Positions 23,821 through 47,920 of a stretch of DNA of 64,000 nt are shown here, piece by piece. The notes under the pieces are model-generated. The model had not been told where the DNA came from. It did no database searches and was given only the letters and a program-made list of their open reading frames with translations. The first letter of the stretch is position 1; each line of letters begins with the position of its first letter. The DNA comes from Phycisphaerales bacterium PN19_bin_20 (lineage in GTDB: Bacteria > Planctomycetota > Phycisphaerae > Phycisphaerales > UBA1924): assembly GCA_021173225.1 (NCBI GenBank), contig JAJOLK010000004.1:62001-126000 (forward strand), written 5' to 3'. Made by a program: the position numbers and the translations under genes.

Positions 23821-24064
23821 GATTGCCGCGTTTCGGCGGTTGGGAGGGGAGTATAGCCGGGGGCCGCGTGCTCGCCAAGCGAGCCGTGCCGTCTTACGGG
23901 CGCGTCCGTGTCGGGCTGGCCTATCGGGCAGGCCTGTCGGGCTGGGGAGGGCGGGGCCAGGGTCTGGCCGCGCTCCGCGTAGATCACATGCAACCGGATT
24001 GCAGGTGGGCTAGAGTTACACCGAGCGATCCACGCCAGGCAGACCACCTTACAGGCCCGTGAGC

Positions 24065-25153
24065 ATGATGACCACACCAACATACACCCGAAGGTTTGTC
24101 AGCCGCGCCGCGTGGCTGATGCTGCTCACGCTGCTGACGACGGCAAGCTCAATTACAGTCCCGCAGGCTTCGGCGGCGATCGCTCCGCCCGAGTTGGCGG
24201 TCACACCCCTTGCGGCCGTCGCGCCTTCCGCGGCACTCACGCCTCTAAACGTGGTGGTCAGCATTCCGCCGCTGCGCGGGCTGATTGAGCCGCTGCTCCC
24301 GCCGGGCAGTCGCGTTGAGGTGCTGATCCCACCGGGCGTCAGCGAGCACGGCTTTGAGATTCCGCCCGCCTTGCTGGCCGCGGTCGTCAAGGCCGACCTT
24401 GTCGTGCAAGTTGGCCTGGGCCTTGAGCCGGGGCTGGAGAAGTTTCTGCGCTCAAGCCCCGCGCCCGCGCGCGTGGTGGTGGTCTTTGCGCAGGTCATGG
24501 GACACGCTTCTGACGGCGGCGACCACGCCACGCACAGCCACGACAAGGACGGCAACTGCATCGTTTCCACTGGCAGTGACCCGCACCTGTGGCTTGACCC
24601 CATCGCGGCCAAGAGCCTGGTGCGTGAGGTAAGCTCGCGGATTATCGAGCTGCGGCCGCTGGCGGGTGTCGAGCTGCGTGACCACCCGACTCGCAAGGCC
24701 GCGCGGGCCCAGATGGCGGCGCTGGATCAGCTTGACGCGGAGTACAAGGGCGTGGTCGCGCGGGCCAGCACGCGAATGTTGGTGGTGGGGCATGATGCGT
24801 ACCGCTTGCTGGCGGCGCGGTACGGGCTTGAGACCGTGGCGATCGCGGGCCTTAGCGCGGGAGAGCCCAAGCCCGCAGACCTGGCGCGGGCGATCGCGGC
24901 GGTGCGTGACAACAAGCTCCCGGCGGTCTTTATTGAGCCGCAGATCTCGCCCCGCGCGGCCCAGCGCGTCGCGGAGGCCACGGGCGCGAAGGTTCTGACG
25001 CTTGACCCACTGGGCGCGGGCGACTACTTCGCAACTATGCGGCAGAACCTCGCGGCGATCGCCCAAGGACTCGGCGTACGCGCAGACGACGCCGGCGGAG
25101 GGAGTGGTGGCGGTGGTAGTGGTGGGGCTGGCGGGGTTCCCGAGCGGCGTTGA
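24065..25153 (+). CDS. znuA: Zinc/manganese ABC transporter substrate-binding protein
   Basis: This protein of about 362 residues is exported, with a signal peptide at residues 1-40. The mature part starts with LNVVVSIPPLRGLIEPLLP, followed by GVSEHGFEIPP with a metal-binding His. A His-rich loop comes next (GHASDGGDHATHSHDKDGN, about residue 150) and then SDPHLWLDP. The later metal ligands lie in LVVGHDAYRLLAARYGL and the DPLGAGDYFATM end. The His loop is typical of zinc-binding members. ATG 24065 is one of three close starts (GTG 24059, ATG 24068). A Gly-rich tail follows the domain. It precedes znuC and znuB. Confidence 0.93.
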   Translation: MMTTPTYTRRFVSRAAWLMLLTLLTTASSITVPQASAAIAPPELAVTPLAAVAPSAALTPLNVVVSIPPLRGLIEPLLPPGSRVEVLIPPGVSEHGFEIPPALLAAVVKADLVVQVGLGLEPGLEKFLRSSPAPARVVVVFAQVMGHASDGGDHATHSHDKDGNCIVSTGSDPHLWLDPIAAKSLVREVSSRIIELRPLAGVELRDHPTRKAARAQMAALDQLDAEYKGVVARASTRMLVVGHDAYRLLAARYGLETVAIAGLSAGEPKPADLARAIAAVRDNKLPAVFIEPQISPRAAQRVAEATGAKVLTLDPLGAGDYFATMRQNLAAIAQGLGVRADDAGGGSGGGGSGGAGGVPERR

Positions 25154-25181
25154 GGTGACGCAGGCAAAGGGGCGCAGTAAA

Positions 25182-25225
25182 AGCGCGAAGTGAGCGCGAA
25201 GTGAGGTCGAAGTGAGCGCGAAGTC
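25182..25225. repeat. 11-bp tandem repeat between znuA and znuC
   Basis: Four copies of AGCGCGAAGTG (third copy AGGTCGAAGTG, fourth ends TC) occupy the spacer. Unlike the coding repeats here, the unit is not a multiple of three and lies outside any gene. Confidence 0.85.
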
Positions 25226-25258
25226 AGGGCGCGCGGTAAGCGTGCGCAGGTCGTTACC

Positions 25259-26332
25259 ATGCACGGCGTGACCAGCAGCGATGCCAGCGAACTGATCGAA
25301 TCGGCGGTCGAGCTCGACGCCGTCAGCTTTACGTATGCCGGCGCGGCGACGCCCGCAGTACAAAGTGTCTCACTGCGCGTCCAAATCGGCGAGCGGCTGG
25401 GCATCCTCGGGCCCAACGGCGGGGGCAAAACGACGCTGCTGAAGCTGATCATGGGCCTGCAGCGCGCCCAGCAGGGGCGCGTGCGTGTGATGGGGCTCGA
25501 CCCTGTCGAGGCGCGCCATCGCGGGCTGATCGGCTACGTGCCGCAGCGGGCCGAGGCGGAGCTCGGCTTTCCGCTCAGCGTGCGTCAGGTAGTGGCGCTT
25601 GGTGCAACATGGCGGCTGTGGCCCTGGCAGGGCGCGGGCGGGGCGATTGCTGATCGAGTCACGCGGGCGCTGGCGCTGGTTGGTGCTGAGTCGTTCGCCG
25701 AGAAGCCCATCGGCGCGCTCTCGGGCGGGCAGTTGCAACGAGCGCTGATCGCCCGCGCGCTGGCGGGGCTGCGGCCGCAGGGCGCGGGGGCGGATCGCCA
25801 GTGGTCGGGGCTGCTGGTGCTTGATGAGCCGACGGTGGGGATTGACGCCGCCGGTCAGCAGCAGTTTGCCGAACTGCTCAAGAGCGTTCACGAACGTGCG
25901 GGCCGGAACGGAACGGGCCGATCTGGAGCGGGCCAGAACGGATCTGGCCTGACGACGCTGATTGTCAGCCATGACATCCGTGCGGTCGCGGCGGGCTCTG
26001 ACCGTGTGGCGTGCCTCTCGCGAACGCTGCACTACCACGACTCACCAAGTGGGCTGACCCCGCAGGTGTTGGCCGAGGTTTTTAGCCATGATGTTGCTGG
26101 GCTGGCGGGCTTTGCGGCCGCGGGCCCGCTGGCGGGGATGCACGTACACGCGCACGGCCCGGGTGAGGCGTGCCCTCACGAGCACGCTTCTGAGCACGCT
26201 TCTAAGCACGATGCTGGGCACGCTGCTGGGCAAGCGTCATCGCACGCTCATGAACACCAGCGTGAGCACGCGCACGAGCACCCCCACGCGCCGCCCCGCC
26301 CGACACTGCGCCCGCCGGAGGGCCCGCGGTGA
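25259..26332 (+). CDS. znuC: Zinc/manganese ABC transporter ATP-binding protein with His-rich tail
   Basis: This 357-residue ATPase has Walker A ILGPNGGGKTTLLKL (about 55-69), the ABC signature LSGGQLQRALIARAL, Walker B LLVLDEPTVGID and the switch IVSHDIR. Typical members are about 250 residues. Here roughly 65 residues at the C-terminus are rich in His, Glu and Ala (HVHAHGPGEACPHEHASEHA, then further HAHEHQREHAHEHPHA), encoded partly by 12-bp repeats. Such a tail could bind zinc and sense or buffer it, but this is inference. The last codon overlaps the GTG of the permease gene (GTGA). Confidence 0.94.
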   Translation: MHGVTSSDASELIESAVELDAVSFTYAGAATPAVQSVSLRVQIGERLGILGPNGGGKTTLLKLIMGLQRAQQGRVRVMGLDPVEARHRGLIGYVPQRAEAELGFPLSVRQVVALGATWRLWPWQGAGGAIADRVTRALALVGAESFAEKPIGALSGGQLQRALIARALAGLRPQGAGADRQWSGLLVLDEPTVGIDAAGQQQFAELLKSVHERAGRNGTGRSGAGQNGSGLTTLIVSHDIRAVAAGSDRVACLSRTLHYHDSPSGLTPQVLAEVFSHDVAGLAGFAAAGPLAGMHVHAHGPGEACPHEHASEHASKHDAGHAAGQASSHAHEHQREHAHEHPHAPPRPTLRPPEGPR

Positions 26333-27243
26333 ACATGGCCGACTATCTCGCTGATACGGCGTTGGCCTGGCCGCTGGTCTGGCGGCCGCTGCTGGTCGCC
26401 GCCGCGCTGGTGCTGATGTCCAGCGTGCTCTCGGTGCTGGTGGTGCTCAAGCGGCTGAGCTTCGCGGGCCAGGGCATCAGCCACAGCGCCTTTGGCGGGG
26501 TTGGCGTCGCAGCGGTGCTGGGCGTGCTGCTAGGTGGCGTGGGCGGCGTTCTCGCGCCGGGCATCGAATTCCTGATCGTGCTGGGCTTTTGCACAAGCTG
26601 CGCGCTGCTGATGGCGCACATCAGCGACCGACGACGCGTGCAGATGGATACAGGTATTGGGCTGCTGCTGGTGGCCGCGATGGCCCTGGGCGGGGTGCTG
26701 GTGGATGTCGCCCGTCACGCCGCGGAGCTGCGCGGCGTCGCGGCACCGGCGCGGTCGTGGGAGAGCGTGCTGTTTGGCTCGATCCAGGTCGTTGGCCCAA
26801 TTGATGTGGTGACTTCATGGAGCGTGTGCGCGGGAGTCCTGGCAACGCTGTGGCTGGTCCGCAGGCCGCTGCTGTTTTGGGCCGTAGATGAGCCGGCGGC
26901 GGAGGCCTTCGGTGTGCCTGTGCGGCGCGTCCGTGCGGTGCTGATGGTGCTGCTGTCACTGGCGGTGGTCACGAGCATGAAGCTCGCGGGCGTGGTGCCG
27001 GCGACGGCGCTGCTGGTGCTGCCTGGGGCTATTGCGCTGCGGCTGGCCGATCGGCTCTGGCTTGTGCTGGCGCTCGCGGTGGGGGCGGCGCTGCTGGGGC
27101 TGGTGCTGGCGATGGCGCTGGCGCTGCAGTTCAACGTGCAGGCCGGGCCGAGTTTGGTGCTGGTGCTGACGGGGGTTTTCTTCATGACCTACCTGGTGCC
27201 GGGCAAGGCGCGTGCTGGCGCGGGCGCTAAAGTCACGGCATGA
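26329..27243 (+). CDS. znuB: Zinc/manganese ABC transporter permease
   Basis: This 304-residue membrane permease of the ABC-3 family has about eight hydrophobic helices. The conserved SFAGQGISHSAFGGVGVAAV is near residue 45, and VTSMKLAGVVPATALLVLPG is present in the later half. GTG 26329 overlaps the znuC stop, and its own stop overlaps the next ATG (ATGA), so the three genes and the following small gene are translationally coupled. Confidence 0.94.
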   Translation: MNMADYLADTALAWPLVWRPLLVAAALVLMSSVLSVLVVLKRLSFAGQGISHSAFGGVGVAAVLGVLLGGVGGVLAPGIEFLIVLGFCTSCALLMAHISDRRRVQMDTGIGLLLVAAMALGGVLVDVARHAAELRGVAAPARSWESVLFGSIQVVGPIDVVTSWSVCAGVLATLWLVRRPLLFWAVDEPAAEAFGVPVRRVRAVLMVLLSLAVVTSMKLAGVVPATALLVLPGAIALRLADRLWLVLALAVGAALLGLVLAMALALQFNVQAGPSLVLVLTGVFFMTYLVPGKARAGAGAKVTA

Positions 27244-27428
27244 AAGCTGAGCGCCTGATCGCCGAGCTCGACCGTCTGCGTAAGGACGCCCCCAAGGACA
27301 CCAGCGACCTTGAGTGGCTGACACTGCACCATATTTTTTGCTTTGTCAGCTACAAGATGACGGAATTCAGAAAGTACGTGGCTGAGCAGGAAGCGCTAGG
27401 CGCGTTCAAGGATGCAGAGGAGTCCTGA
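27240..27428 (+). CDS. Small hypothetical protein coupled to znuB
   Basis: This 62-residue acidic, mostly helical protein (ERLIAELDRLRKDAPKDTSD, then EWLTLHHIFCFVSYKMTEFR) has a start that overlaps the znuB stop. One possible metal-ligand cluster, HHIFC, is visible. No family is recognised. The coupling suggests a role with the zinc transporter or in the same growth condition. Confidence 0.7.
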   Translation: MKAERLIAELDRLRKDAPKDTSDLEWLTLHHIFCFVSYKMTEFRKYVAEQEALGAFKDAEES

Positions 27429-27879
27429 CCGCCCGCCCTAAGGGTGAATCTGGCGAATCTTGGCGAGGCCGGCTTCAGCCGTCAAACGATCTTGACCCGG
27501 ATTGTCCACAATCAGCGAACCCGGGGGCATGTGATCGCCGAATAGATATGTTGAACACGGCTTGCGTGGCCTGCGGCGGACACACACGAACCCGCCCCGC
27601 GCCAGTGCAAGCCATGACGGTGCCCTGAGCGTGTTTTGGTGGCGAGTTGGTCTGAATGTGAACGCATTGGCCTTGGGTTTGGGCGTTGGGATCAGTGGCT
27701 CCGGACGACCAGGTGTGAGGCGAGCGAAGAGCCGCCAAGCATCGGAGCGTGCCAGGGCTAAGTGCCGCGGGCGACGGCCTGCGGAAAATCGTCGGGCGGT
27801 CGGGCGATCCCCCGGCGGCGGCTCGGCTAGGCCCGCTGGCCTGCGATGAGCAGGCGAGCATCGCAAAGGAGGTGATCAA

Positions 27880-27936
27880 GTGCAGATTTCCTACGGATCG
27901 AAGATGGGGCAGTACCTTGGAGCCCGCAAGGGCTGA
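27880..27936 (+). CDS. 18-residue mini-ORF behind a perfect Shine-Dalgarno
   Basis: GTG 27880 opens MQISYGSKMGQYLGARKG then TGA. AAAGGAGGTGATC at 27865-27877 matches the complement of the 16S 3' end over about 13 bases, with 7 nt from GGAGG to GTG, better than any other start in this window. The peptide is basic and not hydrophobic, unlike type I toxins. It may be a real micropeptide, a regulatory leader peptide, or chance. Confidence 0.4.
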   Translation: MQISYGSKMGQYLGARKG

Positions 27937-28036
27937 GGTCGCTCGACGGAGCTGCCCTCCGTGGCACGCCCGGCCTGCGCTCGCGCAGTGCCCGGAACCG
28001 CCCGCCAAGGCACCAGCCCCGATGGCATATAAGCCG

Positions 28037-28068
28037 ACGCCCGCGAGTACACGCTTGCGGGCGTTTTT
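28037..28068 (+). terminator. Rho-independent terminator downstream of the mini-ORF
   Basis: ACGCCCGC (28037-28044) pairs with GCGGGCGT (28057-28064), the stem extends inward with weaker pairs, and TTTTT follows. The nearest upstream ORF on this strand is the mini-ORF. Confidence 0.85.
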
Positions 28069-28094
28069 CATTCTTGCGCGCGCTGCGGAGCGGG

Positions 28095-29015
28095 CTACCT
28101 GCCGCCGAAGGACGCTTGGCTCGGGCCCGGTAGGTGCGCGGGCAGAGTCACCAGGCTCAGTGCGCGATCGACCAGCCCGGTTTCATCAGCCCTGACTAGC
28201 AGCAGGTTTCTTGCCACGCGCGCGATGAAGACGTAGCCCGCGGGCTCAACCAGCGCGCGGATCGCGTCATCTTGCTGGTTGATGCTCTCGATCACCAGCA
28301 CCAATGGGCGGTAGACATTCAGGCTGAAGCCCTTAAGCACGTCGAGCTCGGCCCCTTCAACGTCCAGCACCAGCACATCAACGTGGGTAGTCAGCGGGGC
28401 TAGCAGCGCGTCCATCGTGGTGCAGGGCACCTGGACGCTGCCAAGCGTGAAGCCTTTGCTATCGAGGGCGCGCTGGTCGTCAACGCTCGCCAGCGAGGCC
28501 ATAAGCCCGGCGGACTCTTCGCCCCCGCTGACGGTCCGGAACGTGACCTGTGTCGGCCCACCGGGCGCGCTACACGCGGTGTGCGCCACCGTCGAGCCCG
28601 GGCGGTTGACCCTTGCGCGCTGGGCCCACGCCTGCTGGGGCTCGATCAGCAGCCCGCGCCAGCCTGCGGCCTCGAGCACATACGTCACCGAGTTGATCAG
28701 CCCGTCGGCGGCGCCGCACTCGATATAGAACCCGGGCGCGCGGTCGCCTAGCAGGTCCCACAGCAGTCGGTCCTCGCCGTCCTCGCTGAGGAATCGCATC
28801 GGCAGCGCGACGCTGCGACCGGCCCGAGCCAACTGAACTTTGGCCCGCGTGGTGTACAGCGTGCGCCAGTGTTCTGAAGCCTCAAGGGCGCGCCGACGCT
28901 CGGCACGGCGCCACGATTGCATCAGCCTGAGCTGGCGGCGCAGGCGTGCGGCCTGCACCGCGAGCGCCAAAAGCCCCACTGCGCACATCAGCAGCCCGAC
29001 CAGCATCAGCACCAT
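28095..29015 (-). CDS. Membrane-anchored FkbM family methyltransferase
   Basis: This 306-residue protein starts with a hydrophobic anchor (MVLMLVGLLMCAVGLLALAV) and a basic, coiled-coil-like linker. The FkbM-type SAM methyltransferase domain follows, with FYIECGAADGLINSVTYVLE (SAM motif I), GLLIEPQQAWAQ, and VDVLVLDVEGAELDVLKGF in the middle. Such enzymes often O-methylate sugars. It faces a run of glycosyltransferases on the other strand, so a role in surface glycan modification is likely. An N-terminal anchor is not usual for the family. The long in-frame extension to 29213 is rejected because it overlaps the divergent glycosyltransferase. Confidence 0.82.
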   Translation of the reverse strand: MVLMLVGLLMCAVGLLALAVQAARLRRQLRLMQSWRRAERRRALEASEHWRTLYTTRAKVQLARAGRSVALPMRFLSEDGEDRLLWDLLGDRAPGFYIECGAADGLINSVTYVLEAAGWRGLLIEPQQAWAQRARVNRPGSTVAHTACSAPGGPTQVTFRTVSGGEESAGLMASLASVDDQRALDSKGFTLGSVQVPCTTMDALLAPLTTHVDVLVLDVEGAELDVLKGFSLNVYRPLVLVIESINQQDDAIRALVEPAGYVFIARVARNLLLVRADETGLVDRALSLVTLPAHLPGPSQASFGGR

Positions 29016-47778: not shown

Positions 47779-47832
47779 GGACCTTCGGGCAAGCCGGAGC
47801 TGCCGCGCGGGTGAGTGATTAGACGCAATGAG

Positions 47833-47860
47833 CCCACGGGTTACGGCCCGTGGGTTTTTT
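47833..47860 (+). terminator. Rho-independent terminator of groESL
   Basis: A perfect 8-bp CCCACGGG/CCCGTGGG stem (47833-47840 with 47847-47854), TTACGG loop and six T. Confidence 0.93.
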
Positions 47861-47920
47861 GTTGGCGGCGTACGCCGCGGCGATCGTCGGTGGGCGGTTT
47901 ATTTGTTGCGAAAGTGTGTG

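Follow-up and report, generated by a model that had tools for sequence, protein, structure and literature searches.

Positions 27555–28069 on the plus strand of the window, the 64,000-nucleotide stretch of Phycisphaerales bacterium PN19_bin_20 DNA analyzed here, are on comparative grounds a divergent member of a planctomycete RNA family. The family, unrecognized before, is by its sequence matches a mostly single-copy RNA that occurs across many Planctomycetota. What speaks against a chance origin is conservation, not folding energy. The features of the window copy and its surroundings are:

24059–27243, plus strand: genes of a ZnuA-type binding protein, an ATPase and an ABC-3 permease (metal-transporter operon), upstream of the RNA
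27240–27428, plus strand: conserved 62-codon gene, an upstream neighbor and not part of the RNA; in 58 of the 91 family loci the same gene lies upstream in the same orientation
27555–28069, plus strand: predicted whole RNA gene, based on homology to covariance model R1 at 27751–27964, the 3′ terminator and, for the 5′ end, analogy with the family (uncertain by tens of bases)
27765–27784, plus strand: helix P2, CCGCGGGC - loop GACG - GCCTGCGG, from the R1 alignment
27805–27810, plus strand: P4 loop CGATCC, putative pseudoknot strand pairing with GGATCG at 27895–27900; the loop covaries in the family
27865–27877, plus strand: Shine-Dalgarno (SD) sequence AAAGGAGGTGATC, complementary to the 3′ end of 16S rRNA
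27880–27936, plus strand: mini-ORF MQISYGSKMGQYLGARKG, with GTG start, 18 codons and TGA
27895–27900, plus strand: GGATCG within the ORF, pseudoknot partner of 27805–27810 by complementarity
27906–27912, plus strand: 5′ strand of P5, GGGGCAG, within the ORF, from the R1 alignment
27942–27951, plus strand: helix P6, CTC-GACG-GAG, 3′ of the stop codon, from sequence and family alignment
27952–27957, plus strand: 3′ strand of P5, CTGCCC, from the R1 alignment
28036–28069, plus strand: intrinsic terminator, a 13-pair stem (28036–28065) followed by a T tail

The 16S rRNA of the host genome ends in ...CTGGATCACCTCCTT, which pairs with 12 or more of the 13 bases of the SD sequence in the window. Compared with AAAGGAGGTGATCC, this site has a single mismatch over 14 positions and is the best in the window; the three other matches to AAAGGAGGTGATCC carry three mismatches each, about the level of shuffled sequence. 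An earlier, sequence-only reading of this DNA had described the window's best ribosome site, with a match of about 13 bases to the 16S 3′ end, an 18-codon reading frame behind it and an intrinsic terminator downstream. All three were borne out: the frame runs from GTG at 27880 to TGA at 27936, and the terminator stem with its T tail lies where the feature list places it. The coordinates it gave, 27550–28068, take in almost all of the predicted gene. Its picture of one long upstream hairpin needs correction, since the conserved upstream part of the family consensus consists of several short helices instead of a single hairpin.

Folded as a whole, the 521-nt strand surpassed all of 100 shuffled sequences (z = −2.75; reverse strand, z = −1.52). 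Folding of the 204-nt core of the window copy was not exceptional (z = −1.53; 15 of 200 shuffles were equally good), as would be expected of an ordinary intergenic stretch that happens to carry a strong SD sequence. The probability of such an accident is nevertheless vanishingly small, being refuted by covariation in 54 family members and 41 distant matches, by the recovery of the 91 family loci with R1 and by the match of R1 to the window copy itself, which scored 44 bits in a search of the 64-kb window (27751–27964; E = 1.8e-10). A second R1 match in the window, at 47819–47914 on the plus strand (15.2 bits, E = 0.0062), lacks most of the model and is probably due to chance.

When 61 genomes were searched at the DNA level, three further members of the genus and one other genus gave short matches. 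The aligned close relatives have helix P2, the SD sequence, the start and stop codons, a GACG-loop hairpin and the terminator in common; in genome G022 the element sits on the other strand of the locus. The pattern AGGAGGTGRTCNNRTG was matched in 116 of 163 genomes of the family, mostly once per genome. From all the places listed, 95 loci were fetched and four dropped (L013–L015, which are 321-codon genes, and L097, a 3-codon ORF without the other features), leaving 91 family members. Alignment A2 comprises 54 of them, picked for ORFs of 10–14 codons and hence biased for frame counts. Model R1 was built from 54 of the 91 loci and recovers all 91 with E values of 1.7e-6 or better.

Six helices emerge from A2: P2 with its GACG loop, P3 in two parts that enclose P4, and P5 together with P6, which is again closed by GACG. 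Pairing is found in 95.2% of 1533 cells, and 21 of 29 pairs show changes on both sides. The cells with both-side changes number 148, compared with 45.2 in shuffles, and none of 500 shuffles reached any of the five measures; in a control in which partners were slid by one column, pairing fell below 50%. Helix P2 is paired in 98.1% of cells across the 54 relatives, with six of its eight pairs changed on both sides, and the corresponding values for P5 and P6 are 95.1% and 96.2%. Among the 41 distant matches, aligned on the model and thus leaning towards structure, compensatory changes were seen in all 29 pairs (265 cells versus 85.7 in shuffles; 0 of 500). Kinship among the sequences inflates both these shuffle tests and the permutation tests given below. 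Covariation across these alignments demonstrates the predicted pairing. The sequence-only reading had named a lack of conservation in both peptide and pairing as evidence against it, and the pairing is conserved.

The GACG loops vary little: across the 54 members that of P6 is invariant and that of P2 invariant or nearly so. In distant members, the P5 sequence GGCTGC/GCAGCC recurs beyond what pairing would need. Together with the stand-alone character of the gene described below, these observations favor a dual-function or protein-binding small RNA, in which the GACG-loop structure or an antisense seed, for example the 3′ strand of P5, would do the work and translation would tune stability or turnover. 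Because this explanation does not account for the strictness of the SD sequence, the frame and the stop after 6–14 codons, we consider it possible but somewhat unlikely.

Within the family the P4 loop usually reads GUACAG and is complementary to ORF codons 6–7, usually CUGUAC. Where the loop deviates, the ORF often changes along with it, as in GGACA/TGTCC (L030), TCACAC/GTGTGA (L050), GACAA/TTGTC (L056), ACAGA/TCTGT (L078) and CGAACTT/AAGTTCG (L089). Paired with its own ORF, the loop scored 13.4 over the 54 members versus 11.6 ± 0.30 for permuted combinations, and 12.1 versus 9.7 ± 0.41 in the 30 members without GTACA, values that none of 1000 permutations reached in either set. Seven of the 54 members have weak partners with a score of 10 or less (L011, L042, L044, L063, L077, L080 and L091), that of L011 resulting from a misaligned loop. 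The four close relatives of the window copy are divided between two with GATCC/GGATC and two with weaker partners. A pseudoknot of this kind would account for the presence of CGGATC, translated as Gly-Ser, throughout the genus of the window.

The mini-ORF is kept throughout the 91 members. Its start codon is GTG in 90 and ATG in one, its stop TAA in 40, TGA in 34 and TAG in 17, and its length 10–14 codons in 78 and within 10–23 in all. GGAGGTG[AG]TC, the pattern by which the members were chosen, is present in 91 of 91. Among the distant model matches, 48 of 59 fit 11–12 of the 12 SD bases, a conservation that is partly by construction because the R1 and R2 models take in the SD sequence and part of the ORF. 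Start codons lie at SD spacing in 58 of these 59 (GTG 40, TTG 10, ATG 8), and a stop follows after 6–14 codons in 55 of the 58; L268 was mis-set on a false SD sequence. Two members from order f6 (L137 and L165) have Cys-rich ORFs of 32–33 codons, and by eye these grown mini-ORFs look metallothionein-like.

The spacer between the start codon and P5 is a multiple of three in 76 of the 80 members with a placeable P5, and in all 54 of A2, a set whose choice biases this count; three further spacers within these RNAs show every residue modulo 3. In the remaining 11 of the 91 members no place for P5 was found, and the frame is broken in four of the 80, namely L017 and, from one genus, L057, L058 and L061, so that these clades may be built differently. 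Genus g24 (L057–L062) has ORFs of 18–19 codons and a differently built 3′ part, with the modelled P5 off-frame in three members or unplaceable.

The encoded peptide is free to vary. MQGDKR, MVGLIGLLL, MGSPNRRPSS and MSIGSNQGWLH (start read as M) have nothing in common, and across families there is no common sequence beyond that imposed by P5. The micropeptide that the sequence-only reading had also considered, here taken as the functional product of a structured mRNA, could draw on the kept frame, on the xDCTKGLRR-like peptides of many family members and on the Cys-rich peptides of 32–33 residues in order f6. The CT codons of the former, however, change with the P4 loop, and the distant peptides are unrelated: beyond close relatives the peptide varies freely, and where it is kept it follows the RNA pairing. 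We therefore regard a micropeptide as improbable. By comparison of the loci, what is conserved is not the peptide but the SD sequence, the frame, the length and the overlap of the predicted ORF with the structure.

The 62-codon gene upstream, with the consensus MKAE..LAEL.RLRKD...DLEW..LHH.FCF.SYKM..F..Y, has no match in Pfam or NCBIfam. About half of the family loci have a ZnuABC-like syntenic block ahead of the RNA; the permease gene is present there in 47. As functional partners, the operon and the 62-codon gene were rejected because nothing comparable recurs in distant loci; we treat both as a probable inherited neighborhood and not as a sign of function. Downstream, the window copy is followed by a convergent FkbM methyltransferase gene on the opposite strand, and in 16 of the 91 family loci there is a same-strand gene of one kind that by eye resembles threonine dehydratase. 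A constant neighbor was sought in 44 distant loci, where none recurs in more than three.

A terminator lies no more than 200 nt after the stop codon in all 89 family members with enough sequence, compared with 7 of 210 control stretches. The upstream consensus of 54 loci reads TTGc, ∼16–17 nt, GATAnT, ∼6 nt, ATCGCG, and a strict promoter-like (−10-like) motif is present in 40 of 90 members versus 5 of 197 controls; no promoter was recognized at the window copy. From the terminators and the lack of a constant downstream neighbor we conclude that the RNA is, as predicted from these loci, encoded by a stand-alone gene. A 5′ leader or attenuator, in which a leader peptide and a conditional terminator would precede a regulated gene, would likewise have an ORF overlapping a hairpin and then a terminator, and the 16 loci with the threonine dehydratase-like gene would suit it. 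Because downstream genes vary, the window copy faces a convergent gene and no neighbor is seen more than three times among the 44 loci outside the family, such a leader is very unlikely. The varying downstream genes and the same count of neighbors outside the family leave the earlier suggestion of a leader whose gene was lost without support. The remaining suggestion, an RNA of putative regulatory role that is translated in part, finds support in the kept pairing, the kept mini-ORF and the terminators in 89 of 89 members.

At gathering scores, Rfam 15 gave no match in the window, in 12 family loci or in 20 distant loci. The best sub-threshold match in 27440–28120 had 18.9 bits against a cut-off of 45, and a riboswitch or other Rfam family was rejected since nothing lay above threshold. 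6S RNA (RF00013) was rejected as well, its model matching neither at the locus nor anywhere in genome G000. tmRNA is a single-copy RNA of 350–400 nt in which the end of a short ORF lies within a helix. The predicted RNA resembles it in these respects, but differs in that neither Rfam nor ARAGORN finds a match at its locus. Identity with tmRNA (RF00023) was rejected: neither the covariance model nor ARAGORN matched in the window, and the canonical tmRNA of the host lies elsewhere (G000:C32:14149-14497, 161 bits). All 26 genomes searched for tmRNA had one, in 25 of them above the cut-off.

Dual-function small RNAs such as SgrS/SgrT, RNAIII/delta-hemolysin and SR1/SR1P encode conserved and active peptides. 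The planctomycete RNA is like them in being a predicted stand-alone unit with a terminator, structure and a short ORF that bears comparative signs of translation; unlike them, it keeps translation signals and length while the peptide is not conserved. In leader-peptide attenuators (trpL, ermCL), hairpins formed by a short ORF are in competition with the ribosome that reads it. A comparable overlap is found here, where the 5′ strand of P5 and the pseudoknot partner lie inside the ORF, but there is neither a constant regulated same-strand gene downstream nor a set of conserved sensing codons. Unlike type I toxin mRNAs, which encode short, hydrophobic and membrane-active peptides, the family has unconserved peptides that by inspection are mostly hydrophilic. 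The cyanobacterial Downstream-peptide RNA and yfr6 have a structured RNA followed by a short ORF, with yfr6 measuring ∼250 nt and indels keeping the frame; according to PMC2864571, their conserved motif is confined to the 5′ UTR and the peptides have 17–100 residues. The planctomycete RNA differs in that ORF and structure interlock, most ORFs have 6–14 codons and there is no Rfam match. No published description of this RNA was found in the literature as far as it was searched, including passages of PMC2864571 and PMC4833913.

Of the genomes sampled from the class, 109 of 347 gave a match to R1, as did 40 of 246 from the phylum; R2 was matched in 91 of 248 genomes and in 57 of 294 genomes of the phylum, the R1 and R2 samples overlapping; nearly all positive genomes had a single match. 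About two thirds of the sampled genomes of the class and four fifths of those of the phylum were without a match, which is not the same as absence because only ∼10 candidates were scored per genome. Searching named genomes for the pattern returned 80 loci. R1 matches 67 of them (at least 29.9 bits), which lie on contigs titled Phycisphaerales, Phycisphaeraceae, Phycisphaerae or Planctomycetota, one Gemmataceae and three of other phyla. The last three (L183, L193 and L246, titled Deltaproteobacteria, Cyanobacteria and Leptolyngbya) are strong members with 137–171 bits and are probably misnamed planctomycete MAGs. The other 13 pattern loci, from Pseudonocardia, Streptomyces, Acetobacteraceae and Asaia, Lachnospiraceae, Clostridia, Desulfobacterales and one cyanobacterium-titled MAG, were set aside as chance or other genes.

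Comparison among loci establishes, within the reach of sequence, the pairings, the kept frame, the non-conserved peptide, the terminator and the lack of a constant downstream gene. We propose, with about even confidence for and against, that the RNA is a ribosome-gated stand-alone RNA that would act in trans, the ease of initiation deciding which of two states, loaded or folded, it adopts. The near-complete complement of 16S rRNA would load ribosomes onto the mini-ORF, whose start region is flanked in the predicted structure by P3/P4 on one side and the pseudoknot partner on the other. An initiating ribosome, reading 6–14 codons, would have to unfold both the pseudoknot and the 5′ strand of P5 and would terminate beside P6, the stop codon lying just before that helix; with no ribosome aboard, the RNA would refold. 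Since the pseudoknot partner and one P5 strand lie inside the ORF, translating and folding would exclude each other. The simplest reading of a free peptide combined with a kept SD sequence, frame, length and overlap is that ribosome occupancy sets the state of the RNA. Candidate outputs are the freed 3′ strand of P5, a protein that the GACG loops would bind, or titration of ribosomes. We infer that the RNA is transcribed and translated, that its two states are relevant and that its output is of this nature. Points that weigh against the ribosome-gated RNA are the unrecognized promoter at the window copy and a family motif in only 40 of 90 members, the members with an unplaceable or off-frame P5 or a weak pseudoknot, and the many sampled genomes in which no match was scored among the ∼10 candidates. 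Alternatively, the RNA could be a sponge or an antisense RNA whose translation controls stability only.

A further possibility is that the RNA uses AAGGAGGTGATCCAG and a second complementary stretch, CCTACGG, to clamp the 16S 3′ end, either for the maturation of rRNA or for ribosome hibernation, the ORF being incidental. CCTACGG is complementary to CCGTAGG of 16S rRNA, which in the family reads CCGTAGGAG or CCGTAGGGG at that place and adjoins helix 45. A CCTACGG-like motif occurs after the ORF in 48 of 91 members, inside it in 10 and in both places in none, a mutual exclusiveness that may reflect the history of one clade. The motif is found in neither position in 33 of 91, and by eye its CTCC part pairs locally in many members; these two observations weaken CCTACGG as a second 16S complement. 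Moreover, the kept frame and stops would favor real translation. For a clamp, the likelihood is slight indeed.

To our knowledge, few regulatory RNAs have been described in Planctomycetota. An RNA that is kept, mostly as a single copy, across many planctomycete families is likely to be important, and this family is compact and provided with covariance models. Tentatively, and with less confidence than in the gating itself, we suggest that it is a phylum-wide, trans-acting sensor of ribosome occupancy in which the act of translation, not its product, would be the conserved function and the supply of initiating ribosomes would switch the RNA from one state to the other. If translation itself is the input, the RNA would be a natural reporter of ribosome availability and would represent a new mode of small-RNA control.
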